NCBI GenBank assembly: GCA_030602885.1
Contig: JAUVYV010000019.1
Span: forward strand, 1 to 64,000
Reading direction: 5' to 3'
Source: Phycisphaerales bacterium
GTDB lineage: Bacteria > Planctomycetota > Phycisphaerae > Sedimentisphaerales > Anaerobacaceae
DNA: 64,000 nt
Every line of letters starts with the position of its first letter. Position 1 is the first letter of the stretch. Below the pieces are notes generated by a model. The model was not told the origin of the DNA, searched no databases, and saw nothing but the letters and a program-made list of their open reading frames with translations. Of the stretch, positions 16,394 to 33,176 are shown in pieces. Made by a program: the position numbers and the translations under genes.

Positions 16394-18403
16394 TCATTGA
16401 ACGCTATCAATATTCGCCTCTGCGCTACATATCCGTAGCGAACATTGAAGTGGTTCTACAGTTTTATCCCTTATCCGGGATGTATCATCCATTTCTCTAA
16501 CAGACCAGATTAAACGGCAGATGTAGGAACCGCCGACCTTTTGGTAACGTATCATCCCCGCCAGATTGCTTGCTGATTTATCGACAGTAACATTAATGTG
16601 ACGTCTGTGATCGCCCAGCCTGATGACAGAACCAGTGCAGCCGAGCACTTGTTTTGCTGATACGAGAAACGAGACCACGCCTCCATGACTGACCGGTTCT
16701 GTTATGTTAAAGCATTCAATGTCGTTGCCACCATTATGGGTTGCGTAAAACAAATTCAGTTGAGAAAAAACTTCAGGGTTTATGGTAATATAACCGAGGT
16801 GAAGAGATCCGGGCAGAATTTGTGTCTGGTCCAATTGGTAATCGATATCAATAAAAGGTTGGCCTTTGCCTCTGTAGATACGAAAGGATTTACACAAATC
16901 GCCGCAATCCAGTCGAATTTTCCCCTGAACTCTAATCGATTCTGAATTGTGTTCATAGGCGACTGACATTGACTCAAGCGGCGCCAGATCGGTGATCCGC
17001 CTGTGCCCCGGCGACTCCAGAACCAGATGTCCAGTGTAGTAATCGGCTCCCCAGTTAATGTCATCGTAATAACCGTGATGCAATGTGCCGCACAGCCATT
17101 CTTCAGAAATATCCTTGAACCACAAGGCATCAATCGCCAGCCCGCGTCGGCAGTTCAGACATATTTTAATCGCGTCAGTCTCAACGGTCAGATAAGATTC
17201 ATTTCGCACAACATGCACATCAACCGGCAAGTCAGACACAGAATCATCTTGCCACAATCCGGATACGCTTATTAACCTTGGACGAAACCGCTCAGCTCCC
17301 ACCTTTTTTTCAAATGTCGCCAATCTCTCCCTATATGCCTTCCAGCGTTTCTCTGTAATATGCGTCCGGAAATCACTGGTCCACAGGTAGCATAGTTCCC
17401 GCCAGTCATCATCATTTGACGCAGGATTCGCCTTAAGAGATTCAAAGATACGCCAACAGGCAGTATTGATACCCAGGTCATTTCGGCCAGTAACCGCCCA
17501 GCGCGTGATATTGTATTTTTCCTGCTTCTTGACCGGAATTGGTTGTTCAGACGACTCCAGATGCAACCTGTTCCCAGCTTCAGGCACATTCATCATGTCC
17601 AAAACCTGGCTGGGTTGAACGAATTGAAAACTGTTATCATTCGACAACGCTTCAAAGAGTAACCCAATACGCTGCCATTCATCTCCCTGAAGAACCGCTT
17701 CTGTATGGTAGCGTTCCGGACGAAAGTCAAAGATCTCCACGTCATTACCGTAAAGAGAAAAAGAGCGTACTCGATCGGTTAGATGGCCACAAAGATATTC
17801 TCTATATTCGCCCAAGTCCATTTCTCCATGGGCATAGCGCTGAAATTTCTGAAAGGCAATGGTATTAGTCCAGATAAGAGGTATCTCCTCTCCATACTGT
17901 CCGCATACAAACTGAGGGAAATAGCGCCACTCAGGATTCCACTCTGGGTGATATCGAAAGGGATTATTCCATTCCATGGCAATGGCCTGATAACCGGCAT
18001 CGATATAATGCTGCACCAGACCGGCGGAATAGGCCTGTTCATTCACAAGCGCAATATCGGGTCGAAAACCTAACAATTGCTTATAGATCTGATTCCCAAG
18101 GCAAAGGTTTGCCCTATTGACCTCTGGAGGAACCAACGGCCCAATGATCTGGGCATACCCACTGCCGATAAATTCGCAGGTGCCGTCATTTGTCAACCGT
18201 CGCAGTTCAGATACCCAGCCGGAATCAATAGCCGCAATCGTCTCCAAAGCATAACCCGTGGCCTCAATACCAAAAGGGAGATTGAGCTTACGAACCAAGC
18301 GCAACAACGGCCAATAACAGCGTCGGATAACATCTAAGCGCTGTTCTTCCTCGATTGAGGAATAGGCAATATTAAGATGGAAGATGGAATAAAGCTGAAG
18401 CAT
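16394..18403 (-). CDS. Glycoside hydrolase family 57-like protein
   Basis: Protein of 669 aa without a signal peptide. The N-terminal part has the GH57 layout: FHLNIAYSSIEE (8-19), PFGIEATGYALETI (43-56) and VNEQAYSAG (120-128) with the likely nucleophile Glu122. The NEQ-like motif and the long C-terminal beta-rich region (about 380-660) fit GH57 amylase/branching-type or related proteins found in surface-polysaccharide loci. Its job here could be trimming or rearranging a glycan, or a transferase reaction; the substrate is unknown. It lies between the ATP-grasp block and wzx. Confidence 0.75.
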   Translation of the reverse strand: MLQLYSIFHLNIAYSSIEEEQRLDVIRRCYWPLLRLVRKLNLPFGIEATGYALETIAAIDSGWVSELRRLTNDGTCEFIGSGYAQIIGPLVPPEVNRANLCLGNQIYKQLLGFRPDIALVNEQAYSAGLVQHYIDAGYQAIAMEWNNPFRYHPEWNPEWRYFPQFVCGQYGEEIPLIWTNTIAFQKFQRYAHGEMDLGEYREYLCGHLTDRVRSFSLYGNDVEIFDFRPERYHTEAVLQGDEWQRIGLLFEALSNDNSFQFVQPSQVLDMMNVPEAGNRLHLESSEQPIPVKKQEKYNITRWAVTGRNDLGINTACWRIFESLKANPASNDDDWRELCYLWTSDFRTHITEKRWKAYRERLATFEKKVGAERFRPRLISVSGLWQDDSVSDLPVDVHVVRNESYLTVETDAIKICLNCRRGLAIDALWFKDISEEWLCGTLHHGYYDDINWGADYYTGHLVLESPGHRRITDLAPLESMSVAYEHNSESIRVQGKIRLDCGDLCKSFRIYRGKGQPFIDIDYQLDQTQILPGSLHLGYITINPEVFSQLNLFYATHNGGNDIECFNITEPVSHGGVVSFLVSAKQVLGCTGSVIRLGDHRRHINVTVDKSASNLAGMIRYQKVGGSYICRLIWSVREMDDTSRIRDKTVEPLQCSLRICSAEANIDSVQ

Positions 18404-18497
18404 TGATCGTCTCGGTCATATTAATATGTTCGGCTTCGTAGCCACCATTATGGGTGGCATAGAAAAGGTCACGCGGCGAGAAAGCTTTGGGGTGTAT
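18404..18497 (-). pseudogene. C-terminal remnant of a second GH57-like gene
   Basis: Minus-strand translation from 18497 gives IHPKAFSPRDLFYATHNGG followed by YEAEHINMTETIN. It aligns with the complete GH57 protein (INPEVFSQLNLFYATHNGG, then NDIECFNITEP). The copy begins abruptly and runs in its frame into the 5' end of the intact GH57 gene, so the rest of the paralogue was deleted. The identity in LFYATHNGG leaves little doubt about homology. Confidence 0.7.
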
Positions 18498-18609
18498 TCT
18501 GCAAAGAAAGCAAATATCCTGGAAAGAAATGAGGATAGTGCTATACAATAAAAGTCGTTCTAATATCTTTTCCCTGTCCTCACTCTGAGTCCACTAGAAT
18601 CACATATAT

Positions 18610-19851
18610 CTATTTCATTGGTCCAGACTCTGTTTCTATCCGGATGGTATCATAAACCCACTTAGCTCTGGCCTCTGCTTCGGTACGCGTTTCTCCTTCT
18701 ACTAAAAACCCACCGAATCTTTCTCTATGGCTTTTGGGGAATGGAACATATTCGCCTTCTGAATAATTAACATCAAGAGCATGCACCCAATGTTGGTTTT
18801 GCACTTCTTTTGCACCTTTTATATTCTTTAAAATCCCTTCTCTAGGGAAAAAGTACCGCAACGCGGCGCCACGACTCCATCTGGGCATCAGCTTTGTAAG
18901 ATCGGGTGCATTACCAACTGTAATGTCGATCATGGTTTCTACGATGTTTATACCAGTGCTTACGGGTATTAGACCTGATGACATATATCCACCACTCAAT
19001 CTAGCAGCCATTTCAAACATTACAGGTCCTCTCTTTGAGGTATAAACACCGTCTCCCTTAGCAACTCCTCGTTTAATGCCCAAAGCGCGGGCCGCTCTTT
19101 CCAAGACATCTTCGAACCGCCGCTGCTCTTCTGGTGATAAATTGGTAGGCATTGTGCCGCCGTTCTCTATTATATTGGGTGTAAGAACTGAATTCATATC
19201 ATAATTACGGTCAGAAAAACCAGGTGTGCAAAAGAAATCATCGTAGACTATCGACTCCGTACTTTCCTGAGACCCAGCGATATACTCTTCGACCATAACG
19301 CGACCTGTGTATGAGTCTTTCTTAGAGTTTTCAAACAAATAATTCAAGTCTGCGTTCTCAGTAAGGCGAAATACACCTCTGGCTCCTGAGCGGTCAACAG
19401 GTTTTACAACAAGTGAATAGCCACGTTCGCGTACAATTTTGTGCAGCTCGTCGACGGATGAAATTTCCTTGAACCATGGCACGGGCACACCACATTCCAC
19501 CCAACGTTGCTTCATAGCAAGCTTGTCGGACGCCCATAGAGCAGTTTTTCTTGAAATTGCAGGTGATTGCAATTCCTCTGCAATGATTGCAACACTCATT
19601 GGGATTTCACTTCCCATCGTCATTGCCCCATCTATGGACCGGCATTTTCTATAACTTCGTACGAAGTCCAAAAGGTCATCAACGTTACGTGTACTGAGAA
19701 CAACATGGTCATCTGCATATTCAAATCCAATTGAGTTTGGATTTATGTCAGCGACGATCACAAATAAACCCATTCTCTTTGCGGTTTTGATCGCAAAGAG
19801 TTGATCAGGACTAGCACCTAAGATAAGTATAGTTTTACCTTCGCTTTTTAT
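18610..19851 (-). CDS. ATP-grasp ligase, with an apparent AUA start codon
   Basis: Carboxylate-amine/thiol ligase-like protein of 413 aa if started at ATA 19851-19849. A perfect AAGGAGG (19865-19859) lies 7 bases before that ATA. Translation from it gives KSEGKTILILGASPDQLFAI, which aligns with the start of the two sister ATP-grasp proteins downstream. The first ATG (19773) would remove this strand. The ATP-grasp core follows: SDKLAMKQRWVECGVPVP, SLVVKPVDRSGARGV and VMVEEYIAG, then MFEMAARLSGGYMSSGL as the metal-binding end. It probably joins an acid to an amino or hydroxyl group. Confidence 0.82.
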   Translation of the reverse strand: MKSEGKTILILGASPDQLFAIKTAKRMGLFVIVADINPNSIGFEYADDHVVLSTRNVDDLLDFVRSYRKCRSIDGAMTMGSEIPMSVAIIAEELQSPAISRKTALWASDKLAMKQRWVECGVPVPWFKEISSVDELHKIVRERGYSLVVKPVDRSGARGVFRLTENADLNYLFENSKKDSYTGRVMVEEYIAGSQESTESIVYDDFFCTPGFSDRNYDMNSVLTPNIIENGGTMPTNLSPEEQRRFEDVLERAARALGIKRGVAKGDGVYTSKRGPVMFEMAARLSGGYMSSGLIPVSTGINIVETMIDITVGNAPDLTKLMPRWSRGAALRYFFPREGILKNIKGAKEVQNQHWVHALDVNYSEGEYVPFPKSHRERFGGFLVEGETRTEAEARAKWVYDTIRIETESGPMK

Positions 19852-19913
19852 AACGAATCCTCCTTAATATCGCACTCCATAGATAAACCGATCTCTCCAC
19901 AAACTTTGAATTA

Positions 19914-20666
19914 TCAAAACATATGAAGCCCACCATTGACACATAAGGTCTCACCAGTAATGTAACATGATTCATCTGAAGCTAGAAATAACGCTGCATC
20001 AGCAATATCCTTAGGCTCACCAATTCGACCCAGTGGAACATTTTTGCCAACAGCCTTGATGCCACCTAGCTCATTAATCTCTCGTGATGACATATCAGTA
20101 TTGATAAAACCAGGAGAGATACAATTTACAGTCACGCCAAATTCAGCCATAATACGCGCCAATGACTTGGTTAGAGAAATTAAGCCTGCTTTAGCGGCCG
20201 AATAATGAGGGGCTTTAGGCCCGCCGTATTGCCCTCCCATTGATGAAATATTTATAATTTTCCCTTCTCGTTTCTGTTTAAGATGCGGAAAAGCCTCTTG
20301 TGCACATATAAATGGTCCTTTAAGGCACACCGCTAACATTCTATCCCATTCATAATCAGTAATTTGATCAAAAGGCTTCTGCTGCAAAATACCTGTGTTA
20401 TTAACGAGAATATCAATACATCCGAGAGTCTCTAATGTTGATTTAATAAGGCACTGGACATCTTTACGGCAACTAATATCCGCCTGCACAACAAGTGCAT
20501 TACGCCCCATTGACTTGATGATTTCTTCAACTTCTTTTGCAGCACGTTTATTCTGATAATAGTTGATGACAATATTGCACCCTTCTTCAGCAAATCTTAT
20601 AGCAATAGCGCGTCCGATACCTCGACTTGAACCTGTTATCATCGCCACTTTATCCTTAAGCTTCAT
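19914..20666 (-). CDS. SDR family oxidoreductase (FabG-like)
   Basis: Classical short-chain dehydrogenase of 250 aa. TGSSRGIG (11-18) binds NAD(P), NNTG replaces the usual NNAG (about 89-92), and the catalytic residues are Ser141/142, Tyr155 and Lys159 (YSAAK). The C-terminal LASDESCYITGETLCVNGG is typical of FabG-type enzymes. It overlaps the transketolase C-subunit gene as ATGA, so it is translationally coupled to it. A role in reducing a keto group made by the transketolase pair is a plausible inference. Confidence 0.9.
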   Translation of the reverse strand: MKLKDKVAMITGSSRGIGRAIAIRFAEEGCNIVINYYQNKRAAKEVEEIIKSMGRNALVVQADISCRKDVQCLIKSTLETLGCIDILVNNTGILQQKPFDQITDYEWDRMLAVCLKGPFICAQEAFPHLKQKREGKIINISSMGGQYGGPKAPHYSAAKAGLISLTKSLARIMAEFGVTVNCISPGFINTDMSSREINELGGIKAVGKNVPLGRIGEPKDIADAALFLASDESCYITGETLCVNGGLHMF

Positions 20667-21661
20667 ATCAATTCCTCTTTAAACCCATTATTCTTACGTT
20701 CAATAGCTTTCTTCGCAGATTTTATAATGTCCTGCACATCAATACCATACATCTTGAATAGCTCAAAGTTCTCACCACTACGACCGAAAGCATCATTTAC
20801 TGCTACAATTTCAATCGGAACAGGATATATTTGCGCGGTTAGCTCAGCAACAGCGCCACCCATTCCTCCATATTTATTATGATCTTCGACTGTTACGATG
20901 GCCCCCGCTTCCTTGCAGCATGATTTAATGGTTTCATAATCGATTGGCTTGATACTTCTTAGATTAATAACACGAGCAGAGATTCCGTCATTTTTAAGTT
21001 GACCTGCGGCTTGCAAAGCAGCTTCTACACGAGAACCACATGCAATAATTGCAACATCATTCCCATGCCGTAATATATCCGCTTTTCCTATCTTTATTAA
21101 CCCTGGATTTTCATATATGATGGGTGCAGGACTTCTACCAATGCGCATATAAACCGGACCAGGTTCATTCAATACCGCCTCCAGCATTGGTTGAATTTCA
21201 TTAGCACAGGCCGGAATAACCACTTTTAGTTTTGGGATAGCTCTGCAAGTTGCTATGTCTTCCAACATTTGAGCAGTAGCGCCATCAGGCCCAACATCAA
21301 GCCCCAAATGACTGCAGCATATTTTTACATTGCGATTACCATAACAGACTGCTGTTCGTAATTGCTCATGCGCACGCATAATAGTAAATGAGCTAAAGCC
21401 AACAACAACCGGTATAAGGCCACTATCTTCAAAACCCGCTGCAGCAGCCATCATGTTTTGCTCAGCAATTCCAAATTGCAGGACGCGTTCAGGGAATAAT
21501 TCAGCAAATGGTTTGGATCCGGTGCCTCCACGTACATCAGCATCGAATACGTAGAAGTCGTCCCTGATCTTACCCAATGCGATAAGTGCTCGACCAAAAC
21601 CTTCCCTAAGTGAAATCCGCTGATCTTTGTGAAATAATTGAAATTCTGCTGATATTGTCAT
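20663..21661 (-). CDS. Transketolase, C-terminal subunit
   Basis: Protein of 332 aa carrying the pyrimidine-binding and C-terminal domains of a two-subunit transketolase. The catalytic-site Glu region is present as LQFGIAEQNMMAAAAG (GIAEQ with the Glu that contacts the thiamine pyrophosphate aminopyrimidine), followed by CCSHLGLDVGPDGATAQ. The ATG at 21661 has GAGG about 9 bases upstream and is preferred to the one at 21691. It pairs with the N-subunit gene just upstream, as in the split transketolases common in archaea and in some bacterial glycan and secondary-metabolite loci. Confidence 0.88.
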   Translation of the reverse strand: MTISAEFQLFHKDQRISLREGFGRALIALGKIRDDFYVFDADVRGGTGSKPFAELFPERVLQFGIAEQNMMAAAAGFEDSGLIPVVVGFSSFTIMRAHEQLRTAVCYGNRNVKICCSHLGLDVGPDGATAQMLEDIATCRAIPKLKVVIPACANEIQPMLEAVLNEPGPVYMRIGRSPAPIIYENPGLIKIGKADILRHGNDVAIIACGSRVEAALQAAGQLKNDGISARVINLRSIKPIDYETIKSCCKEAGAIVTVEDHNKYGGMGGAVAELTAQIYPVPIEIVAVNDAFGRSGENFELFKMYGIDVQDIIKSAKKAIERKNNGFKEELI

Positions 21662-21696
21662 CCAACGAATCCTCTGTAACATATTGGCCATGTTTA

Positions 21697-22509
21697 TTAA
21701 ATATCCAACTCTGCTGAAGCCTTGGCAAATTCTTGATCAGATAAGGGAATAGCTCCATGCCATTTGGTTTGGTTTTCCATAAATGAAATGCCTTTGCCCT
21801 TGATTGTATTAGCAACAAGGAAATAGGGGTTGCCTTTATGAAGTTTTGCTTGTCGCAATGCTTCTTGGATTTGCTCACAATCATGACCATCTATCTCCTT
21901 AACAACCCAGTGAAAGGCTTTAAGTTTATCCACAATAGGAGCAAAATTCATTGTATTTTCTACAGTGTCTTCCGCTTGAATTTTATTATAATCTAATATT
22001 ACACATAGATTATCCATCCTATGATATCCAGCAGCCATAATTGCTTCCCATGTAGCACCCTCCTGCATGTCACCATCTCCAAGAATAACATACACTCTAA
22101 AGCTCTTCCTGGTGCACCGTGCTCCTAAAGCCATCCCCAACCCTTGGGATAACCCCAATCCCAATGAACCAGAGGGTGCATCCACGCCTGGTATTGTGAT
22201 TGATGGGTGTCCTTCAAGTATTCCATCAATTCGCCTGAATCTCGAAAACTGAGTTCTTTCAAAAAAGTCTCTTAAACCAAGTGCGGCATACAATGCCGCA
22301 CATGCGTGGCCTTTTGACAAAATAACACGGTCACGATCGGGCCATTTTGGGGTTTTTGGATTAATATTAAGCTCAGAAAAATAAAGCACGGCTAATATAT
22401 CCGCTACAGACATGGTTCCCCCGGGATGGCCTGCGGGACAATTATACATCATTTTAAGAGATTCAAAGCGAATTTTTCTTGCCCATTTCTGTAATTGTTT
22501 TTTCTCCAC
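21697..22509 (-). CDS. Transketolase, N-terminal subunit
   Basis: Protein of 270 aa with the thiamine-pyrophosphate binding motif: GDGDMQEGATWEAI starting at 144 and ending in LDYNK at 172-176. Early motifs AGHPGGTMSVADILAVLYF and VILSKGHACAALYA are typical of transketolase. The start codon is GTG. With the C-subunit it forms a full ketol-transfer enzyme moving a two-carbon unit between sugars. Presence in a glycan locus, separate from any pentose-phosphate genes, suggests a dedicated role in building an unusual sugar (inference). Confidence 0.9.
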   Translation of the reverse strand: MEKKQLQKWARKIRFESLKMMYNCPAGHPGGTMSVADILAVLYFSELNINPKTPKWPDRDRVILSKGHACAALYAALGLRDFFERTQFSRFRRIDGILEGHPSITIPGVDAPSGSLGLGLSQGLGMALGARCTRKSFRVYVILGDGDMQEGATWEAIMAAGYHRMDNLCVILDYNKIQAEDTVENTMNFAPIVDKLKAFHWVVKEIDGHDCEQIQEALRQAKLHKGNPYFLVANTIKGKGISFMENQTKWHGAIPLSDQEFAKASAELDI

Positions 22510-22524
22510 AATAAGACTCTTTTC

Positions 22525-23760
22525 CTATTTTTCCACCACTATTGATATGTTCTTTAAGGCTTCCTGCAAATTTAATTGGAGCTCCGCTAAAGATAATCCA
22601 TAGGCCCAGATAAAGCCAGCCACTGTCGTATTATCATAATGAGGTCTAACTGAATCACCCTCTTTGATATTTATCATAACCTCATACACTCCAGGCATAG
22701 AAAGCAATTCTCCCAATCCATTCACTGTCTTTACGATACCCGGCTTTGGAAAAACAGCATGCCATCCCGCTAATTTTCTGGGTTGTGGAATTGCCATTCC
22801 TCGAGGAGACTCCACACCACTAAGTGAAGCGAAAAATGCCTTTATCGGGTTGCTTTGAAGAGCCTCAGGTGTAACATATGCAGTTGTTACTTCTCCATGA
22901 AACCGAGGAGCCAGCTCAATGATAATTGGACCTTCCTTAGTTAGTATCAGATCGGCTTTTACTGGTCCCGTCTTAATACCAAGGCTGCGTGCAGCCTTTT
23001 CAAGCAATTGATAACAGGCATCCTCTTCTGTTTCTGCAATTATCGCTGGTTGATATAGCCATAAAGGGATATGTAAAGGCGTTGGGGTGAAAAAACGCTC
23101 ATCTATTCCACACCGTAAAAACTCTTTGTCAACGAATAATCCATTGACATCAATATGACGGCCAATCACTAACTGCTCAATTATTACATTTTTCGAAAAG
23201 CATTGAGCTCTTTTAAAAGATATCTCCAAAGCCTCGTTGTTCTTCGCGGTTGACACGCCCCTGCTGCCTGAACTGTCGACTGGCTTCACGATTACCGGAT
23301 ATCCAATGCCCGCTACAGCCTCCCTAGCTTCATTCAATGTTAACACTGTTACACTGCATGGCGTTGAAAGCCCAGTTTCAACCCATCGCTGTTGGGAAGA
23401 AGCTTTATCAAGTGCCAATCTAACTGTTGATAATGAAGGACTTGGCAACCCATAAGCATCAGAAACCGCCGCAACCACGGGCAAGGCAAAATCACTCCCC
23501 CCATAAACGCCAATCAAATCATAATTTGAAGTTACCCTCTTGGCCAGGGCAAGAAATGATTGAACATCTGTGCCATCAATATTTATAAATTGATCAGCGA
23601 GCATCCGTCCCTGGACATCTGGATTCTTGTCAGTGACAATCACATGTAAACCCAATTCTCGAGCCCAACGTATAATAGGTAATTGTAGGAAACTACCCCC
23701 TATAAGAATGATCGCCTTTGCTCTTTTCACAGTAACCACTTGATAAAATATTCTCTTCAA
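22525..23760 (-). CDS. ATP-grasp ligase
   Basis: Second of three related ATP-grasp proteins, up to 411 aa. The preATP-grasp domain has AIILIGGSFLQLPIIRWARE; the ATP site has LALDKASSQQRWVETGLS, VIVKPVDSSGSRGVSTA and VIIEQLVIG; the metal-binding end is IIIELAPRFHGEV. The ORF opens at TTG (23760); GTG codons near 23739 and 23730 are alternatives and the true start is not decided. It sits 15 bases upstream of the transketolase N gene, so the two are probably co-transcribed. The substrate is unknown. Confidence 0.8.
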   Translation of the reverse strand: MKRIFYQVVTVKRAKAIILIGGSFLQLPIIRWARELGLHVIVTDKNPDVQGRMLADQFINIDGTDVQSFLALAKRVTSNYDLIGVYGGSDFALPVVAAVSDAYGLPSPSLSTVRLALDKASSQQRWVETGLSTPCSVTVLTLNEAREAVAGIGYPVIVKPVDSSGSRGVSTAKNNEALEISFKRAQCFSKNVIIEQLVIGRHIDVNGLFVDKEFLRCGIDERFFTPTPLHIPLWLYQPAIIAETEEDACYQLLEKAARSLGIKTGPVKADLILTKEGPIIIELAPRFHGEVTTAYVTPEALQSNPIKAFFASLSGVESPRGMAIPQPRKLAGWHAVFPKPGIVKTVNGLGELLSMPGVYEVMINIKEGDSVRPHYDNTTVAGFIWAYGLSLAELQLNLQEALKNISIVVEK

Positions 23761-23772
23761 ATAATATAGAAT

Positions 23773-24912
23773 TTAACTTGCAGTCGAATTATAATAACCC
23801 ACGTTACTCAGAAAGAGTTTTTTGTCAAATGAATCAAATATTTTCCCATGCAAATCTTTAAGATCCTCGCCAGACAAAGCGATAAAATGTTTATTAATTG
23901 TATTTTCTTTAAGGAATTCACTTTCAAATAAAATTGCGAAAGGATGCAAATTGGGGATAGCGAGTTCATGAATGCTATTTGTTGCAATATTGATACAGTA
24001 TTTGAAGTAATTAAATGAAGAGTCAGACATGGGAAGCAATTCCTCCGCTATCAGGTCTCCGCCAAGGTCAGCATGTAATTCAATAATGTACGGATTTCCA
24101 GACATATCGACCCTGAAAGATAGTATTAAAAGGTGATTTATATCAGCTAATTGGAGGGCAAACGATTCAATAATTGCTCTTATTTTCTTTTCGGTCTGCG
24201 ATCTAATGACAACTGACGGAGCGCTCACCCCCATGGCAAATATTTCACCATTTTTCTTAAATCCAACCAGCTCATCCCAGAAACAAACAATAGAAGCATT
24301 CCTTTTGTCTATATGAAATAAACAAGCAACATCAAAACCATCAATATATTCTTCCACTTCAGCAAAACCATTGCCTGATGATTGAATGGCCGCCTGAACT
24401 GCTGATTCCAAATCGGATGATTTCCAGACCACTCTAATATCTTTTTTCCCAATTAAGGGCAAGTCAGGCTTAAGAATCAAAGGTAGTGGAAAATTCGAAT
24501 CAAGCTCTTTTAGCTGAGAAATCTTTTGTCCTTTAGGCATTAAGATATCATGACTTTCGCAAAATTCTCTTAGTTTCGATTTCTCTGTTGCAAGTGGAAC
24601 AATTTCTCTATTTAATCCAGGAAGGTGAAATTCCTCAGCTATTGCAGCGGCTGTTTTTAGTGCAGGACCGGACGTCCGGGCCACGAGGCCACAAAAATGA
24701 TGTCGCTTTTCTAAAACATGTAATGCATCTAAAACAATCTCCATGTCATAAGTACTTTCTATAATCTTTGTATCTGCCAGTGAAAATCCAGGCGCATCCG
24801 AATCGCGATCAATGGCAACAACACTGTATCCTCTGTGCTTTACCGCCTGAATCAATGGCAACTGAGAAATACCAGCACCTAAACAAATAATGGGATCATT
24901 TTTCTGTATCAT
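23773..24912 (-). CDS. ATP-grasp ligase (more diverged)
   Basis: Third ATP-grasp protein, 379 aa. The start ATG 24912 has GAGG 7 bases upstream and follows the methyltransferase by 37 bases. PIICLGAGISQLPLIQAVKH aligns with the same strand of its two sisters. The central part has PLILKPDLPLIGKKDIRVV, where the usual glycine-rich SGSRGV loop is altered to LIGKKDI, and FAEVEEYIDG. YIIELHADLGGDLI replaces the usual ELAPRFHG. The changes suggest altered activity or substrate. It is 13 bases from the next ATP-grasp gene. Confidence 0.72.
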   Translation of the reverse strand: MIQKNDPIICLGAGISQLPLIQAVKHRGYSVVAIDRDSDAPGFSLADTKIIESTYDMEIVLDALHVLEKRHHFCGLVARTSGPALKTAAAIAEEFHLPGLNREIVPLATEKSKLREFCESHDILMPKGQKISQLKELDSNFPLPLILKPDLPLIGKKDIRVVWKSSDLESAVQAAIQSSGNGFAEVEEYIDGFDVACLFHIDKRNASIVCFWDELVGFKKNGEIFAMGVSAPSVVIRSQTEKKIRAIIESFALQLADINHLLILSFRVDMSGNPYIIELHADLGGDLIAEELLPMSDSSFNYFKYCINIATNSIHELAIPNLHPFAILFESEFLKENTINKHFIALSGEDLKDLHGKIFDSFDKKLFLSNVGYYNSTAS

Positions 24913-24949: not shown

Positions 24950-25885
24950 TTATAATGAAGAAGCCATTGTTTGTTTTTTTCCGATAACTGTGATTTCACG
25001 GCCAAGACCTATTTCAGAAAGCTTGTTATAAATTTTCCGTTTCAAGTTTGTATTGCCAGATTTTTCCATAGCGCAATCAAATTTTTTTCGTTTGTTGTGG
25101 ATTTCTCGACCAATCTTGTTGTTTCCAATGTAATCTTCACCCAACAGAATAAATAATTCCAAAGGAAAACTGGATGTGTGATAGATAGGTCTAAACCCTG
25201 TCTTTATTAACAAATTATCGAGCGAATCGCGATCAAAATAATTCACATGTTCCCTTATATCAACCCACCACATGTCCTTCTTATAATAGTCAATCACAGC
25301 TTTTTGCAGCGGGTTAAAATCGTTTGGAACAGAAACACTGATTAATCCATCCGGTTCAAGGATATCGTGAATACACAACAAAGTGTTTTGAGGATGAAGA
25401 AGATGTTCAAGAACATTATTTATATGTACAACCTGAAATGTTCCAAACTGTGTATGCGTTTCCTCATTAAAGAACACATTATGGACATTAAGGGCAAGTT
25501 TTGATGTTGAATACTTCCAGGCTGCTCGCCCAGGCTCAACGCCAACGGTTGTCCATCCTCTGTCACATCCAGCCTTGAGAAACAAACCCGGCCCGGAGCC
25601 AATATCCAACAACGTTTGCTGAACTGGACTTGGCAAGAACTTTTTGAATAAATCATACTTCTCATTATACTCGATCTTATACCATTCACTTTCCTCAAGA
25701 TGATTCCTGATGTAGTTGCCCCAATAATTCTCATAAAAGGAATGTTCATAGAAATCAGCCTGTTCTTTCTCATCGGGAAGAGGAATGGCATGCTTGAAAC
25801 CACATGGTTCACAATCAATGATATAGTGTTGATCCTTTTCCGCGACTACCTTTCCGTAATGATTATTCCAAACTTTTATCATCAT
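24950..25885 (-). CDS. Class I SAM-dependent methyltransferase
   Basis: Protein of 311 aa. An N-terminal region with CEPCGFKHAIPLP and an aromatic stretch (YEHSFYENYWGNYI) resembles the entry segment of sugar C- or O-methyltransferases. The SAM domain has LLDIGSGPGLFLKAGCDRG, VGVEPG and VVHINNVLEHLLHPQNTLL. The tail is basic. It lies between another methyltransferase and the third ATP-grasp gene in a tight run, so it probably acts on the same glycan. Confidence 0.82.
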   Translation of the reverse strand: MMIKVWNNHYGKVVAEKDQHYIIDCEPCGFKHAIPLPDEKEQADFYEHSFYENYWGNYIRNHLEESEWYKIEYNEKYDLFKKFLPSPVQQTLLDIGSGPGLFLKAGCDRGWTTVGVEPGRAAWKYSTSKLALNVHNVFFNEETHTQFGTFQVVHINNVLEHLLHPQNTLLCIHDILEPDGLISVSVPNDFNPLQKAVIDYYKKDMWWVDIREHVNYFDRDSLDNLLIKTGFRPIYHTSSFPLELFILLGEDYIGNNKIGREIHNKRKKFDCAMEKSGNTNLKRKIYNKLSEIGLGREITVIGKKQTMASSL

Positions 25886-25919: not shown

Positions 25920-26915
25920 TCAGCGTTTTTGAGCCACCGCCAACATACTAGAAGAAAGCAAATTATCTGCCAAAAATCGCTGGAATGTATTCCCCAATCG
26001 TTCCCACTCATCAATGAGAATCAGTTTCAGGAAAGGATGCTCATTGATATCAAACTTACCTTCAAGTGCCTGGTTTCGAACAATATCGGCATCCAATTCC
26101 CCTGGAGTAGTTACATCTAAAACTGTGAATCCGCTTTCCTCCAATAAAATCGCAAGCGATTGCGTATTGAACATATTAATATGTTCTAAACCAAAATTCG
26201 GTGCTTTTTGTTTTCCCAAAATCATAAAGTCAAACCCTTTTACATTAGGACATTTGAGAACCAATAGCCCATTTTTTTTCAAATAAGACATGCTTTTTTG
26301 TATTAAATCCCGGGGAGAAAAAACATGTTCAATGACTTCAAATGAAACGATGCAGTTGATACTCTCCCCAGGTAAATCCAATTCTTCAAACGGCGCTTCT
26401 ATTACTTCCAGGTCCTTCTCTCGGCATTTTTGCGCTAAATCAGGTGTAGGCTCCACCGCAATGACTCGCTTAAAAATCCCCTTTCTTTGTATTTCATCAC
26501 AAAAAATGCCAAAGCCAGCACCGATTTCCATCAAAACATCGGTTTCAACATTATTTTGACAGAGATATGTAACAATCTTGTCCGCTAAAGGGCGGAAAAT
26601 ATTTTCCCTGCGTGCGGATTTGGTTTTGGGGAAAATATGCTTCGCCCAAAAAGTATAACTTTCCGCTTTGGCATAATAATCCCGGAGTTGTTCCTTAGTG
26701 GGCCTTGGATTATGAAACGCTGTTTCGCAATCCGTGCACGTTTCGAAGGTCATTCCCCTGACAACAACTGGCTCTTTGGTCTCCATACTGTCGCATGCCG
26801 GACAGGGAACTCGTATAAAATGCTCCTGACCAGCAAGCCATCGTTTTCTATCTTTCTGTAGGAACACTTCCAGTTTCTCTATTAGTTCTTTCGGACGAAT
26901 GTCAGACTCTTTCAT
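25920..26915 (-). CDS. Zinc-ribbon SAM-dependent methyltransferase
   Basis: Protein of 331 aa. An N-terminal CPACDS and CTDCETAFHNPRPT pair forms a CxxC...CxxC zinc ribbon, followed by YAKAESYTFWAKHIFPKTK and the SAM domain: LMEIGAGFGIFCDEI, VIAVEPTPD, NCIVSFEVIEHVFSPRDLI. This layout is common in sugar methyltransferases of O-antigen loci. The start ATG 26915 has GGGGGGAGAG directly upstream; the longer frame to 27080 only covers the amidotransferase gene. It overlaps that gene by 14 bases, suggesting coupling. Confidence 0.85.
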   Translation of the reverse strand: MKESDIRPKELIEKLEVFLQKDRKRWLAGQEHFIRVPCPACDSMETKEPVVVRGMTFETCTDCETAFHNPRPTKEQLRDYYAKAESYTFWAKHIFPKTKSARRENIFRPLADKIVTYLCQNNVETDVLMEIGAGFGIFCDEIQRKGIFKRVIAVEPTPDLAQKCREKDLEVIEAPFEELDLPGESINCIVSFEVIEHVFSPRDLIQKSMSYLKKNGLLVLKCPNVKGFDFMILGKQKAPNFGLEHINMFNTQSLAILLEESGFTVLDVTTPGELDADIVRNQALEGKFDINEHPFLKLILIDEWERLGNTFQRFLADNLLSSSMLAVAQKR

Positions 26916-28080
26916 CTCTCCCCCCTGTATACGCCGCAACCGCATCTTCATCAGAATCAACCCCAGGGGTAAAAAGCGGCAACCATTTCCCCTTTTTATC
27001 TTTTTCGAAAAGCTCTTTATTGATCCATTTTTCTTCCATCTCCCGCCAGAATTCTTCAACAGTGATCTCCATATAATCACAACATTTCTTTATATGCTCT
27101 TCATCACAATATCCATCCCATTTCTTTACCAGTTGTATCGCTTCTTCCCTGGTCATTTCTCCACTTCGAATCTTCTTACTACAATATTCCGTCCATCTCG
27201 ATTCTCCAAATTTATAGTATTTAATCATTGGATTGAAAAGCTGAAAATCGCTATCAACCGAACCATAACGGCCATACTTTCCGAGGCGTTGCCACATGTG
27301 ATCTTCACGGCCACGTAAACCATGCCTGATTGAAAATTCAGCGTTATGATCGGGCGACCATTCTTTCACATAAAATTGAAGGTATATGGCGCGAATCCCA
27401 GCTTTTTCCATGTCTTCCTTATCAGGAAACTGATATAATAATAGATTTTTCAACTCTATGCCATCACCCACCCAGTCGGAAGCATTTCCTCCCCGCAAGG
27501 TGTTGCCCATAGCAATATTGAAAGCATTGTCATCTTTTCCGTATCCTTTTGTAGTTCCAAGGGTTAGGCCAGGGTTTTCCCCCTGGATAATCAAAGGGAT
27601 TCGATAGGCAAGAGCAGTTTGATATGTGATGGCAAACAGCGGATATTCCGATGGTTTTACGGGATTCCCATATTCGTAAAAGGAACGCCTGGTAAGAGCA
27701 CGCCAGATTTTAGGATTGGGGCGCCACGAAACCATATCAAATCCATGACTCGCCAGATTTTGTAAATTGCGCTTCCCGACCTCTGTAATCCCATCCGGGT
27801 AGCAGTTTGCCAGGAGGCAATTCAATCCTAACTCATCCCTGGCATAAAGTGCCTGAAATGTACTATCCTTCCCCCCGCTAACTCCGATAGCACAATCATA
27901 TCCACCATGATTATTCTCCCGTGCCCATTGAGCAATTGCATGAAGATCTTTCTTTCTTGCCTCCCAGTCAATTTCAGTTCGACTCTGCTTTGCAAAAACA
28001 CAGGCCGTACATATGCCGCTTTCATTAAATTCCATATTCGGTCGTGTATCGGGCATAAGACAAGTTTTACAATATTTCAT
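26902..28080 (-). CDS. N-acetyl sugar amidotransferase (WbpG/PseA-like)
   Basis: Adenine-nucleotide alpha-hydrolase of 392 aa. CxxC pairs at 4/7 and 24/27 look zinc-binding; VSGGKDS (67-73) is the PP-loop. Family members put an amidino group on nonulosonic or glucuronic-type acetamido sugars, using ammonia delivered by HisH/HisF homologues. Neither HisH nor HisF is in the window, which is unusual. The gene lies 5 bases after pseG and overlaps the zinc-ribbon methyltransferase. The exact sugar is unknown. Confidence 0.88.
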   Translation of the reverse strand: MKYCKTCLMPDTRPNMEFNESGICTACVFAKQSRTEIDWEARKKDLHAIAQWARENNHGGYDCAIGVSGGKDSTFQALYARDELGLNCLLANCYPDGITEVGKRNLQNLASHGFDMVSWRPNPKIWRALTRRSFYEYGNPVKPSEYPLFAITYQTALAYRIPLIIQGENPGLTLGTTKGYGKDDNAFNIAMGNTLRGGNASDWVGDGIELKNLLLYQFPDKEDMEKAGIRAIYLQFYVKEWSPDHNAEFSIRHGLRGREDHMWQRLGKYGRYGSVDSDFQLFNPMIKYYKFGESRWTEYCSKKIRSGEMTREEAIQLVKKWDGYCDEEHIKKCCDYMEITVEEFWREMEEKWINKELFEKDKKGKWLPLFTPGVDSDEDAVAAYTGGRDERV

Positions 28081-28085
28081 GACAC

Positions 28086-29162
28086 CTAACTTCCCTTTCT
28101 AATTTGGGTCATTGCGAGATTGAGTGAAATCATCCGGGCAACACGCTCCACACCCTGTCCGTCCACCTGCTGCCTGGCCCGATCGGCCATCTGCGAACGC
28201 TTGGGAGCGTCGTTCAGCAATTGCCTTAGCGCCTCAGCCAGCATTGTTTTGGTTACATGAGGGAACACATCCAGGCAAACTGCCATGCCCTCCTCCACAA
28301 AAGCCGATGCAGACTCAGCATGATCTTCCGTCAAGCACAGATAAATGGCGGGGACCCCCATAGCTGCGAGTTCGTAAGCTGTAACGCCAAAAGAAGCCAC
28401 AGCAAGATCGCTTTGTGCCATTATTTCCGCCATATTTTGGACGTTTTCTCGTACATCAAAACGGCGTTTGCAATTAGAAAGCAAGTTTCCAAATTCTTTT
28501 TTATGCTGAAATCCAGCGCCTAAAACTACAACAACTTCAAAATCTTCATCAAGCCTCTCCATGGCCTTCACTACTTTAAGTGTCATGCCATGTGGATCAC
28601 TACCACCCATGGTAACTAAAACCTTAGGAGTATGGAGCACGTAGCCTGAAGCTTGGGACTTGGGGCAAGAAGCGTGGGAAAATTCTTTGCGCAGGATTAC
28701 CCATTCCCAGCCGACGTAGGGTTCTCCGCTAAAGCCTGTCCAGTCTACGCGTTTTACCTGAGGAACCGGGAGACAAAAGACAAGATCAGCAGATAGACGT
28801 TTGTTTTCGGGATCATCAATTGTAACTATCAAAATACCCTCTTTTCTCAATTCATCGAGAGTCGTTCGTTGTAATCCGTCACGTACGTCGAGTATGAGCA
28901 CTTTCGCTTCCACATTTCTGGCACATTCATTGAGCCATTCTCTATAATCAAATGATAAATCACCTTTGGGTGGAGTAAGTACTTCATAGTCTTTTTCCTT
29001 TACCATCTTAATTCCAAGCGGGCCTGTACGCATAGCAAAAGTAATATGGCAATCGTGAACATCATGCAGTTCATCTGCAAGAGTAAGGCAACGGACCACG
29101 TGGCCGAGGCCGTTTTCGGGGGAACCATCACACCTAATCAGCACATTCACAAATCTCTCCAT
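28086..29162 (-). CDS. pseG: UDP-2,4-diacetamido-trideoxy-hexose hydrolase (PseG-like)
   Basis: GT-B-fold hydrolase of 358 aa that in the pseudaminic acid pathway removes UDP from the diacetamido sugar. The signature is RCDGSPENGLGHVVRCLTLA with the catalytic His21 in GLGH, followed by VLVTMGGSDPHG and later VASFGVTAYELAAMGVP. There is no GNAT domain fused at either end, so the acetylation step must come from elsewhere. It overlaps the cytidylyltransferase gene by 16 bases. Confidence 0.88.
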   Translation of the reverse strand: MERFVNVLIRCDGSPENGLGHVVRCLTLADELHDVHDCHITFAMRTGPLGIKMVKEKDYEVLTPPKGDLSFDYREWLNECARNVEAKVLILDVRDGLQRTTLDELRKEGILIVTIDDPENKRLSADLVFCLPVPQVKRVDWTGFSGEPYVGWEWVILRKEFSHASCPKSQASGYVLHTPKVLVTMGGSDPHGMTLKVVKAMERLDEDFEVVVVLGAGFQHKKEFGNLLSNCKRRFDVRENVQNMAEIMAQSDLAVASFGVTAYELAAMGVPAIYLCLTEDHAESASAFVEEGMAVCLDVFPHVTKTMLAEALRQLLNDAPKRSQMADRARQQVDGQGVERVARMISLNLAMTQIRKGS

Positions 29163-29953
29163 TTATAAACACCCACTTTAGATATTCTCGCCCATAGACT
29201 TCTTTTTTCTTCCAATTCAATATTCAATCTCTTGTGAGATACATCTTTATTAACATTGGCAATATTCGGATGGCTATCCAGCCATATCAATGCATCTAAT
29301 AAATCAATTGGTTCTGAACTATATAAATTATCATAAAGAGTTTTAATTAATCTATAATCATTTTCTTCATCAACTGTTAACCTGTATTTGTTAAGACATA
29401 AGTCTTCGGGTATATCTATTTCCACTATTCTAAACTCATTTGGGTTTTCTGTAAGATATTTAGACCCTACATGCTCAAAATCTTCGGCATCTATTGATTT
29501 TTCATTAATATAGGATAAAGACCGGAATGAATGTACTCCTTGCCCCTCAAGGATAGAACACGAACGTTTCGACCATATCACATCACCATCAAACTTATAT
29601 AGTGCCATGATCTGCTGATCAATAAAAGCTGGACAAATCAATGGACAATCTCCGGTAACCCGCACAAAATAAGGATATGAACCTTTTTCTAATATTTCCC
29701 AAAACCGACTTAAAACATTGTTTAGACTGCCCCTGTAGTAATTCATGTTGTTATTTATGCAAAACTCGACCAAAGGATCATCAGAACTATCGGTGGAGGT
29801 CGCAACAACTATCTTATCAACAAACCTGCAATGTTCAGCACGATTATAAATATGCCATATTACTGGTTTGCCGGCTAAAGGTTTTAGAACCTTTCCATAT
29901 AATCTTGTTGAAGACATTCTTGCTTGTATGATTGCTATTGCAGGCTTTTTCAA
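29147..29953 (-). CDS. Cytidylyltransferase of the SpsF/PseF type
   Basis: Nucleotidyltransferase of 268 aa expected to activate the nonulosonic acid with CMP. The N-terminal AIIQARMSSTRLYGKVLKPL is the CTP-binding signature, and VRVTGDCPLI the metal-binding DCP segment. The C-terminal region keeps LTVDEENDYRLIK as in SpsF-like proteins. The start is TTG, overlapping the stop of the upstream synthase gene as TTGA, so translation is coupled. Confidence 0.85.
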   Translation of the reverse strand: MKKPAIAIIQARMSSTRLYGKVLKPLAGKPVIWHIYNRAEHCRFVDKIVVATSTDSSDDPLVEFCINNNMNYYRGSLNNVLSRFWEILEKGSYPYFVRVTGDCPLICPAFIDQQIMALYKFDGDVIWSKRSCSILEGQGVHSFRSLSYINEKSIDAEDFEHVGSKYLTENPNEFRIVEIDIPEDLCLNKYRLTVDEENDYRLIKTLYDNLYSSEPIDLLDALIWLDSHPNIANVNKDVSHKRLNIELEEKRSLWARISKVGVYKWRDL

Positions 29954-30822
29954 AGTTTACTTCTTGCAATCTTAAAGGGTCTTAAGCCGTTTTCCGGATC
30001 AGCGCGCCAATCCCTTTCAGCCAGTTCAGACTTTGTTGGTTCCTTAATACCATTTCCGTTGGCAGAAAAACCCATGTCTACATTTTTTATCACCCGTTCA
30101 ATCTCATTAGGCAACCAGCAATGTCCCATTTTGAATTCTTCTCCTCTTCCATCCAGATCCAGATGAAATTCAATTACCCCTGCACCCCATCTGTGCACTG
30201 CACGCGAGATTATAGCGTCTGAAACAGAATGGTCCGACCACCCAAAGTGGATTTGAACTTCAGGATTAGCAATACTGATTTTAGAACGCATGGTTCCGAT
30301 TGCAGATAAGTTACACTCGTCAGGATGTGCAGGGTAGGCAGAGACACAATGTAGAACTGTAATGTCCTTACATCCATTAGTTGCTAATACGCCGACGCTA
30401 CGTTGAACTTCCTCTAAATTTGCCATCCCGGTAGATAATACTGCCGGCTTTCCAGTTTTGGCACAAGCCTTTACCAAATCGTGCCATAGTAATTCATAAG
30501 AGGCAATTTTATAGAAATCAACATAAGGCTTCAATTCGTCCACTGCTTCGAGATAAAATGGCGTACAGGAAAACTGTAAACCTGTTTCATGACATCTTTT
30601 GCAAAGTTTCGGAAGAAACTCAAGAGGAAGTTCCCATTTCTCCCTTCTTCTAAGCTCTTTATTCTTATTTAATGCTTCAGGAGCAAATAACTCGTTAATA
30701 TTAAACAACTGAAACTTTACTGCATCACAGCCTATAGTTTTGGCTGTTTCTATAAACTTTAGACACCGGTCAATATCCCTGTTGTGATTGCTGGAAACTT
30801 CGGCTACGAATTTTACATTCAT
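29950..30822 (-). CDS. N-acetylneuraminate/pseudaminate synthase family protein lacking the SAF domain
   Basis: Protein of 290 aa with the TIM-barrel part of NeuB/PseI: AEVSSNHN (7-14), KFQLF (36-40), KIASYELLWHDLVKACAKTG, LSTGMANLEE, LHCVSAYP and GWSDHS. It should condense phosphoenolpyruvate with a hexose derivative to make a nine-carbon sugar acid. Typical family members have about 340 or more residues with a C-terminal antifreeze-like (SAF) domain; this one ends after DWRADPENGLRPFK without it. Such short forms are known in SpsE-like groups, so it may be functional. Confidence 0.85.
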   Translation of the reverse strand: MNVKFVAEVSSNHNRDIDRCLKFIETAKTIGCDAVKFQLFNINELFAPEALNKNKELRRREKWELPLEFLPKLCKRCHETGLQFSCTPFYLEAVDELKPYVDFYKIASYELLWHDLVKACAKTGKPAVLSTGMANLEEVQRSVGVLATNGCKDITVLHCVSAYPAHPDECNLSAIGTMRSKISIANPEVQIHFGWSDHSVSDAIISRAVHRWGAGVIEFHLDLDGRGEEFKMGHCWLPNEIERVIKNVDMGFSANGNGIKEPTKSELAERDWRADPENGLRPFKIARSKL

Positions 30823-31434: not shown

Positions 31435-31522
31435 CTACGGTTTTACACCCGTAGCATTGCCGCTTCGGGCTTCGCCCGTCCGACTTTGTCGGATAACTTC
31501 ATCTATGGGTTATCACCCATAG
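31435..31522. repeat. Pair of related short hairpins overlapping the pseC-like 3' end
   Basis: CTACGG/CCGTAG at 31435-31454 and CTATGGGT/ACCCATAG at 31503-31522 are two forms of the same GCAAT-hairpin unit, read on the minus strand as GCAAT followed by CTATGGGT or CTACGGGT. Between them are two smaller palindromes (CGGGC/GCCCG and TCCGAC/GTCGGA). The second unit provides the stop and the last codons of the aminotransferase gene. Confidence 0.6.
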
Positions 31523-32690
31523 TATTGCGGCGGAATAGTAATTTTAAAAATTGTGTGTTTTTCACCAATGCTTTCTTGACGGTTTGAATGACGGTATCTA
31601 CATCTTCATCTATCATTGCAGGAAACATCGGCAGGGATAAAATCTGCTTGTACGCAGCCTCAGCAACAGGACACAATCCTTCTTTAGTACCGAAACACCT
31701 GCGATAAAATGGGTGCAGATGTACAGGGATATAATGTACATTTACACCAATGCCTGCATTTCTCAGGAAACTAAAGACTTCATTTCTGTCGGCGTCCAGA
31801 ATCTTGACGACGTATAAATGATAAGCATGAGAACTACAGGGCATAACGTCCAGAGGTTTAATTGCAGAAAGACTCCTAAAAGACGCACCATAGTGCAAAG
31901 CAATTTCCTGCCGTCGCTTTATCCATGCAGGCAGCTTCTTTAACTGGCTTTTTCCCAAAGCACATTGAATGTCTGTAATCCTATAATTATAGCCGATGTC
32001 TTCTATTTCATAAAACCACTGTCCTTTTTCAGCACGTTGCCGCTGGTCCAGAGTGACGCCATGATTACGAAACATTCTCATTCGTTCATAATACTCCGGA
32101 TTATCGGTTACGATCATTCCGCCTTCTCCTGTCGTAATGTGCTTTACAGGATGAAAGCTGAAAGCAGTAACATCCGCTAATGTGCCGACTTTTTGCCCCT
32201 TGTACATACCGCCTATTGAATGACATGCATCTGCTACCAACACAAGGTTATTCTTGTCGGCAATTTCTCGTAAAACATCGTATTGACAGGCCTGGCCGGT
32301 ATAATCTACAGCAACTATAGCCTTGGTTTTTGGGGTGATTTTGGACTCAATCAAATTCGGGTCAATGAGCAATTTGTCGGCATCAACATCACAAAATACC
32401 GGCAAGCCACCCCGGAACACAATGGCGGTAGCGGTGGAGGCGAATGTCATAGCTGGAACGATAACCTCGTCACCTGGAGCAATGCTGACTGCATACATAG
32501 CGGCATGCAGGGCCGCCGTTCCACTTGATACAGCCACTCCATATTCTGCACCTACAAATTCAGTCACCGCTTCTTCGAACTCATCTACAGCGGGACCGGT
32601 AGTAATCCAATCAGATCTTAGCACTTCAACAACGGCCTTTATGTCGTCTTCATCTATACATTGGCGGCCATAAGGTATGAATTTAGTCAA
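31503..32690 (-). CDS. DegT/DnrJ aminotransferase (PseC-like)
   Basis: PLP-dependent aminotransferase of 395 aa that aminates the 4-keto product of the PseB-type dehydratase. Motifs are DWITTGPAVDEFE, SSGTAALHAA, the AFSFHPVKHITTGEGG loop with PLP-binding Lys183, and DIGYNYRITDIQCALG. The start is TTG (32690), overlapping the stop of the pseB remnant. The last residues RRNTMGDNP are encoded by a hairpin repeat unit, not by native sequence, which suggests the original 3' end was replaced. Without it the protein still has a normal length. Confidence 0.9.
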   Translation of the reverse strand: MTKFIPYGRQCIDEDDIKAVVEVLRSDWITTGPAVDEFEEAVTEFVGAEYGVAVSSGTAALHAAMYAVSIAPGDEVIVPAMTFASTATAIVFRGGLPVFCDVDADKLLIDPNLIESKITPKTKAIVAVDYTGQACQYDVLREIADKNNLVLVADACHSIGGMYKGQKVGTLADVTAFSFHPVKHITTGEGGMIVTDNPEYYERMRMFRNHGVTLDQRQRAEKGQWFYEIEDIGYNYRITDIQCALGKSQLKKLPAWIKRRQEIALHYGASFRSLSAIKPLDVMPCSSHAYHLYVVKILDADRNEVFSFLRNAGIGVNVHYIPVHLHPFYRRCFGTKEGLCPVAEAAYKQILSLPMFPAMIDEDVDTVIQTVKKALVKNTQFLKLLFRRNTMGDNP

Positions 32691-32984
32691 TTTGTAGACC
32701 CTTTACAATCTTTGTAAGCTCCTCCCGACTCAACCATGCATCATTGACATCGCTTCAAAAAACGAAGTCCTTTTATAAAGAGGGGTAATTCTCATATTTT
32801 ACAAGCTCCAGCATAGCCAAGAGATCGAGGAAGTATTACATATATTCCATCAAACACTTTAACCTTTTGGGCTCCGTCGTAAAAAATAAAAGTTTCATTC
32901 ACTTTCTCACCTAGCCTTATTCCTAATATATTTGAACGTACAGCCCAACCCAATATCTACGAGTACAGGATTGATCCCCAAGAG
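32683..32984 (-). pseudogene. C-terminal part of a second pseB-like gene
   Basis: Minus-strand translation gives, across frame breaks, NILGIRLGEKVNETFIF, then VKVFDGIYVILPR, then DVNDAWLSREELTKIVKG. This aligns with the end of the intact PseB (RTIGIRPGEKVHETLIS, KRFDGIYVILPQF, DTNDDWVTAEDLKRMI). There are stops and small shifts, for example near KYENYPSL and KDFVF, so it is decayed. It is joined to the N-terminal stub of a pseC copy. It ends at TAA 32685-32683, inside the start of the intact aminotransferase gene. Confidence 0.75.
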
Positions 32985-33176
32985 TCAAGCCACATGCAGC
33001 GATGCAGTTCCTGAGGCAAAGACAACCGCAAATTTGATGCCACAATACTCTGCAAGCAAATCCTCAAATTCTTTTACCTTTGGACCCTGAGTGATCCAGT
33101 CAGATTCTAAGGATTCGGTTACCTGCCTGATATCATCTGAGTTTATGGACTGATGGCTGTAAGGAATGTTTTTCAT
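32985..33176 (-). pseudogene. N-terminal part of a second pseC-like aminotransferase gene
   Basis: An ATG at 33176 starts MKNIPYSHQSINSDDIRQV, continuing DWITQGPKVKEFE and VVFASGTASLHVA, then stops after 63 residues. It matches the beginning of DegT-type aminotransferases (compare SSGTAALHAA of the intact gene). It directly follows the intact pseB in the usual pseB-pseC order and overlaps its 3' end by 44 bases. The rest of the enzyme is absent. Confidence 0.8.

Follow-up and report, generated by a model that had tools for sequence, protein, structure and literature searches.

Gene Organization of the Locus

The DNA analyzed here (the window) is a stretch of 64,000 nucleotides (nt) from a contig of a Phycisphaerales bacterium (JAUVYV010000019.1, positions 1 to 64,000). 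On its minus strand, between positions 18610 and 24912, lie six genes that encode, in the order of transcription, a divergent ATP-grasp-like protein (A, 23773–24912), an ATP-grasp ligase (B, 22525–23730), the N-terminal thiamine diphosphate (ThDP) subunit of a split transketolase (TK-N, 21697–22509, with a GTG start), its C-terminal subunit with the pyrimidine and C domains (TK-C, 20663–21691), a FabG-like short-chain dehydrogenase/reductase (SDR, 19914–20666), and a further ATP-grasp ligase of the L-amino-acid-ligase type (C, 18610–19851). The probable function of the gene set is to make an unusual acid and link it to a sugar resembling sialic acid, destined for flagella or for coats on the cell surface.

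A first-pass annotation of the same DNA had listed the six genes in this order with short or overlapping junctions, in agreement with gaps of +42 nt (A/B), +15 nt (B/TK-N), +5 nt (TK-N/TK-C), −4 nt (TK-C/SDR), and +62 nt (SDR/C). All genes except A clear Pfam cut-offs (PF00456 for TK-N; PF02779 and PF02780 for TK-C; PF13561 with 234 bits for the SDR; LAL_C2 and ATP-grasp_4 for ligase B; LAL_C2, PF18603, with 52.5 bits for ligase C), and for these five the family calls agree among Pfam, NCBIfam, and PDB sequence searches. Although the six genes had been placed correctly, the block as then delimited is too short. The unit extends to a gene for a GH57-like enzyme on one side (16394–18403, also on the minus strand; PF03065, 49.3 bits) and to methyltransferase and pseudaminic acid (Pse) genes, up to position 34200, on the other. 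Upstream, in the same tight run on the minus strand, are genes for PseB-like, PseC, NeuB, PseF-like, and PseG-like proteins, a WbuX-type amidotransferase, and two methyltransferases; downstream, the GH57-like gene is accompanied by a flippase gene and further polysaccharide genes.

A Conserved Gene Set Recurs across Phyla

Genome contigs were scanned with a profile derived from the ligase C alignment, which yielded 80 loci. When a plasmid locus is counted with them, 60 carry four or all of the five core genes, the prevailing order being TKN-TKC-SDR-AGC-GH57 (AGC, ligase C). The co-occurrence of the families beyond this genome, on which the first-pass annotation had made its proposal depend, is thereby strongly supported: the core set (the module) is present in about 60 genomes from several phyla, usually together with Pse genes and often beside flagellin. 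Loci were not selected via the transketolase; nearly all were found by the ligase alone, and two of the 79 with a strong ligase match (L121 and L122) via GH57. With a strong match defined as at least 200 bits and partner genes counted within 9 kilobases, 60 of the 79 strong-ligase loci contain a transketolase subunit; an IlvB-like enzyme occurs in 6 and a DXS-like one in 2, and the remaining 11 (some lying on short contigs) lack all three. A transketolase accompanies only 2 of the 12 weak matches, both in Pelagibacter. Given this difference, the grouping is not a product of chance.

Among the 60 transketolase-type loci, an SDR gene was counted in 59, GH57 in 53, PseF in 43, PseG in 39, NeuB in 38, flagellin in 37, PseB in 34, and PseC in 33; a homologue of the S-adenosylmethionine (SAM) methyltransferase MT2, a recurrent module member encoded in the window at 24950–25885 (PF13489), was counted in 34. 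These counts are lower bounds, many loci ending at contig ends. A longer order, MT2-TKN-TKC-SDR-AGC-GH57-PseB-PseC, is also repeated. In 40 of 40 genomes the top TK-C match is 47–54% identical (100% in the host genome itself), compared to at most 37% for the next match, and its coordinates agree with those of the ligase locus in all nine genomes compared.

The ThDP enzyme differs among the loci. On a quick tree of the ligase, its type switches at least four times, and in related loci that keep the chassis an IlvB-like or a DXS-like ThDP enzyme stands in place of the split transketolase. IlvB-type loci combine NeuB, an SDR, a methyltransferase, the IlvB-like enzyme, and an ATP-grasp protein, with GH57 in five of the six. 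In L028/L023 and L029 (Planctomycetota and Nitrospirota), which also contain Maf-like genes, the split transketolase gives way to a fused enzyme of the DXS-like type, about 586 residues long.

A search of plasmids returned one informative record, from Solidesulfovibrio carbinolicus (L020), which brings together NeuB, PseF, a PseG-like protein, a methyltransferase, SDR, TK-N, TK-C, a methyltransferase, ATP-grasp, a GH57-like protein, PseB, and PseC. Plasmid matches in Parabacteroides and Enterococcus proved to be capsule loci without the module and were set aside, and nothing was found in the viral contigs searched. The Solidesulfovibrio plasmid also carries another pair of split-transketolase genes (L020:21104-22805), with genes for a methyltransferase and a radical-SAM protein nearby, and one locus (L073) has tandem transketolase/ligase sets in the order TKN TKC MT AGC TKN TKC SDR AGC GH57 (MT, methyltransferase). 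In some Alphaproteobacteria (L069:11215-12833, also L063 and L042), genes for a PIG-L de-N-acetylase and a formyltransferase are inserted between ligase C and GH57, which suggests a further N-acyl exchange. Other companions of the module are a gene for a sulfotransferase-like protein (in 30 of the 60 loci, many of them alphaproteobacterial; L041:5311-7343), a second methyltransferase (33 of 60), and an iron-containing alcohol dehydrogenase (10).

The Split Transketolase and the ATP-Grasp Ligases

The nearest solved relative of both transketolase subunits is the split transketolase of Carboxydothermus hydrogenoformans (TK-C, 6yaj, E 4e-76; TK-N, 6yak, E 1e-82). In the numbering of yeast transketolase, TK-C keeps the catalytic Glu and the equivalents of His469 and Arg528, and TK-N keeps the equivalents of His30, His69, His103, and His263. 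Compared to the Carboxydothermus enzyme, two positions of the substrate pocket are altered in the module transketolases: a phosphate-site Ser is replaced by Gly in 58 of 60 and a His/Gln by Ala in 52 of 60. Since the host genome also carries a one-piece transketolase-like gene (G000:C48), the split enzyme appears dedicated.

The first-pass annotation had singled out the third ATP-grasp protein for structure prediction. The AlphaFold model of ligase C is of high confidence (predicted local distance difference test score [pLDDT] 95.5) and adopts an ATP-grasp fold of the L-amino acid ligase type, with 3vot matched at a template modeling score (TM) of 0.84. Homology of ligase C runs 26 codons 5′ of the first ATG, and no ATG, GTG, or TTG precedes the stop. 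Translation likely begins at an ATA or ATT near 19851 (region 19773–19851) behind an AGGAGG-like site, or else the sequence is imperfect there. The LAL_C2 domain is shared by ligases B and C. An Anaerolineae locus (L032), the one other locus seen in which A and B accompany the core, has a second ligase with 31% identity to B. As the two are absent from nearly all other core loci, they are not considered part of the core step. Protein A is the least certain ATP-grasp member of the three: a Pfam search gave no match, its family match is weak, its resemblance to the ATP-grasp structures 4dim and 3vot is modest (E 1e-8 to 1e-7), the alignment indicates loss of the glycine-rich loop, and LAL_C2 is likewise not matched.

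Pseudaminic-Type Pathway Genes

The genes upstream of the block resemble those of the Pse pathway of Campylobacter and Helicobacter (PseB-C-H-G-I-F), with which they share PseB- and PseC-like enzymes, a PseG-like hydrolase, a NeuB-family synthase, and cytidine monophosphate (CMP) activation. The PseB-like dehydratase (33133–34200; PF02719, 338 bits) is 55% identical to PseB of the Solidesulfovibrio locus, and the aminotransferase PseC (31503–32690) exceeds its model cut-off (TIGR03588, 458 bits; cut-off 423.5). Beyond a noncoding gap of about 680 nt after PseC comes the nonulosonic-acid synthase NeuB (29950–30822), which is followed by the PseF-like cytidylyltransferase (29147–29953; PF02348, 96 bits), the PseG-like uridine diphosphate (UDP)-sugar hydrolase (28086–29162; TIGR03590, 152.5 bits; cut-off 153.55), an N-acetyl-sugar amidotransferase of the WbuX/PseA type (26902–28080; TIGR03573, 337 bits; cut-off 203), and the SAM methyltransferase MT1, which has a Cys-rich N-terminus (25920–26915, its start placed at 26915 by inference; PF13489).

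In contrast to the Campylobacter and Helicobacter pathway, the cluster contains no PseH, its NeuB lacks a SAF domain match and falls far below the PseI cut-off (164.6 bits; cut-off 340), and an arm of transketolase, SDR, methyltransferase, ATP-grasp, and GH57 genes is added. The NeuB protein has 290 residues and matches PF03102 alone; an own-genome search identified it as the sole NeuB. Its length is typical of the module, with 42 of 46 NeuB proteins from module loci measuring 283–300 residues and four, outside the standard pattern, 325–348. NeuB enzymes use their SAF domain to contact the substrate's N-acyl group, and loss of this domain in the module NeuB may create the space that a bulky group needs. 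A PseH was not found in the window; one GNAT protein is encoded on another contig of the genome (67 bits; cut-off 93). By eye, no acetyltransferase-like open reading frame (ORF) was recognized between PseG and PseC in the module loci.

Comparison with Flagellin Glycosylation Systems

The closest described counterpart is sfmABCDE of Shewanella oneidensis, which encodes a 290-residue NeuB, an IlvB-type ThDP enzyme, a FabG-like SDR, a SAM methyltransferase, and an ATP-grasp protein (PMC3765264). These genes are required for a nitrogen-free, O-methylated C9–C11 group on the mono-N-acetyl-Pse of flagellin; in the glycan, mono-N-acetyl-Pse (274 Da) is joined by an O-methyl-bearing C9H16O7, C10H18O7, or C11H20O7. 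No clear orthologue of PseH was identified in Shewanella (PMC3765264). The window shares with this system the combination of a 290-residue NeuB, a ThDP enzyme, an SDR, a methyltransferase, and an ATP-grasp protein in one operon, a pseudaminic-type core, and the lack of a clear PseH. Moreover, the IlvB-type loci of our survey match sfmABCDE in gene content and size. The two differ in that sfm has an IlvB-type enzyme and one ligase, whereas the window block has a split transketolase and three ligases; GH57, present in the module, is absent among the five sfm genes, and the sfm product is placed on flagellin, for which the window genome has no match. The best reading is that the block represents a transketolase variant of the sfm type, by analogy in protein lengths, gene content, and annotation rather than sequence.

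A second comparison is with Treponema denticola, whose flagellin glycan has a mass of 450.2 Da (cited in PMC9481697). Subtracting 274.12 leaves 176.1, the mass of a methoxy-trihydroxyhexanoyl group. The glycan is reported (Kurniyati 2017) to be a Pse-type sugar with a 2-methoxy-4,5,6-trihydroxyhexanoyl group on N7, which would be the kind of product predicted for the window block. We know of no genes assigned to making the acyl group in T. denticola.

The literature searched yielded no relevant paper tying a transketolase to nonulosonic acid or flagellin glycosylation. The statement of the first-pass annotation that it knew of no described pathway with this gene set thus stands, within those papers, for the transketolase version, with the amendment that a close relative with another ThDP enzyme exists in Shewanella.

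Proposed Pathway and Alternative Explanations

Based on gene order, family assignments, co-conservation, the exchange of ThDP enzymes, retained catalytic residues, and fold, we propose, with a probability of roughly 0.6, that the block forms one arm of a pseudaminic-type nonulosonic-acid pathway, the arm that makes an acid and attaches it, in the transketolase variant of the sfm type. Judging from family membership, PseB and PseC would yield a UDP-sugar that bears a single N-acetyl group and a free amine. In place of the PseH acetylation route, the split transketolase may form a C–C bond on an aldehyde acid (donor and acceptor being guesses), the SDR would reduce the keto product to a polyhydroxy acid, and one or both methyltransferases could O-methylate it. 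ATP-grasp C would then activate the carboxylate with ATP and join the acid to the free sugar amine, after which the PseG-like hydrolase, the SAF-less NeuB, and the PseF-like enzyme are predicted to give a CMP-activated sugar. The enzyme logic of the first-pass annotation (acid–amine ligation, two-carbon transfer, keto reduction) is retained in this scheme. Its suggested product, a branched or chain-extended sugar, is only partly supported: the assignment is now narrower, tied to a pseudaminic-type pathway, and the making of an N-acyl group for that sugar is better supported than extension of the sugar itself.

Several points weigh against this proposal. In Shewanella, loss of sfmA-D abolished the modification, and mutants without the ATP-grasp gene sfmE lost less of it (PMC3765264). 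The sfmE phenotype fits a late ligation step, yet if sfmB-D only made the acid, their loss should resemble that of sfmE. The GH57-like enzyme finds no place in the scheme. PseH scores above the cut-off in 1 of 45 module genomes, yet also in only 1 of 53 PseC-bearing Alphaproteobacteria used as controls, 46 of which are without the GH57 marker; absence of PseH was dropped as decisive proof that the acetyl step is replaced, the controls likewise lacking a model-level PseH. To our knowledge, no glycan has been described from a transketolase-type organism.

The total loss of modification in the sfmB-D mutants, as if these enzymes acted on the sugar core, would be accommodated by a different scheme, in which the transketolase and SDR extend or branch the nonulosonic sugar itself by a two-carbon unit, with central metabolism supplying a small acid for ATP-grasp C to attach. 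Transketolases normally use sugars, and the sugar-binding His residues are retained. We nevertheless regard this scheme as doubtful: the Shewanella core is the unextended 274-Da sugar, with the extra atoms in a separate nitrogen-free, methylated unit, and the transketolase and SDR genes stand directly before the ligase in most loci. The nitrogen-free nature of the Shewanella adduct also makes it unlikely that the ligases place amino acids or a short peptide on the sugar amine, with the transketolase and SDR supplying an unusual amino-acid precursor, even though the fold of ligase C is closest to L-amino acid ligases and the extra ligases A and B are present here and in the Anaerolineae locus; their rarity in other core loci speaks against it as well. 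It is very improbable that the locus is a polysaccharide mosaic in which unrelated tailoring genes came together by chance. Such an origin would suit the recombination scars, gene fragments, and lowered G+C of the window, but it is refuted for the core TKN-TKC-SDR-C-GH57, whose order is the same across phyla; chance could still account for A, B, and the amidotransferase.

The chances are about even that the module defines a widespread, undescribed class of nonulosonic-acid pathway. In this class, a dedicated arm that builds an acid would take the place of the acetyl step. Its ThDP enzyme could be a split transketolase, IlvB-like, or DXS-like, and exchanging one for another would change the acyl group on flagellar and surface sugars; the lack of a SAF domain in NeuB and the presence of the GH57-like enzyme would reflect adaptation to the bulky group. 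No assigned biosynthetic route to the large nitrogen-free or methoxylated acyl-like groups of Shewanella and T. denticola was found in the literature searched, and the conserved set names candidate enzymes for these groups on flagellin glycans. The gene set, widespread and largely unrecognized, suggests how odd flagellar sugars are made and that the C–C bond-forming step was swapped several times in its history. Its presence in the cultured organisms S. carbinolicus, Acanthopleuribacter pedis, and Sulfidibacter corallicola makes the route testable.

Destination of the Sugar

Judging from the surroundings of the loci, the module serves glycosylation of proteins or of the surface: flagellin is often nearby, in one example locus together with a TPR protein, and Maf-like genes occur in others. 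In most relatives, with flagellin or Maf genes adjacent, the sugar probably goes to flagellin. The host genome (97.6% complete) gave no match to flagellin (PF00669), and because it also has only one NeuB, the sugar here probably enters the surrounding Wzx/Wzy polysaccharide. The flippase of that region was assigned by family search, and polymerase and export genes by reading of the ORFs.

History of the Locus and Minor Features

G+C content is 0.30–0.45 within the cluster compared to about 0.50–0.55 in the flanks. The 60 genomes nearest to the host gave weak ATP-grasp matches only, and 7 of 392 genomes in a search of the phylum passed 1e-25; on these grounds vertical inheritance was set aside. 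The low G+C and the lack of the set in close relatives fit horizontal acquisition of the cluster.

The model of the GH57-like enzyme (pLDDT 93) is similar to 4-alpha-glucanotransferase and GH38 mannosidases. E122 and D221 are invariant across 35 sequences and, by analogy with 1k1w, would be the GH57 catalytic Glu and Asp. Of another GH57-like gene, only about 31 codons are left on the minus strand (18404–18500; tblastn E 1e-10, 55–58% identity to GH57-like proteins); this remnant stops exactly at the start of the present gene. Because the two abut and the window GH57 is about 74% identical to that of locus L030, compared to only about 44–46% for ligase C, recombination has probably exchanged the GH57 gene, and the remnant would be the scar of this event. 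Short ORFs resembling the PseC N-terminus and PseB C-terminus were noted by eye between the intact PseB and PseC genes (32792–33194) and are probably leftovers of an earlier PseB/PseC pair. A small ORF in the polysaccharide region (35001–35396) resembles a nucleotidyltransferase-partner protein of the HEPN type.

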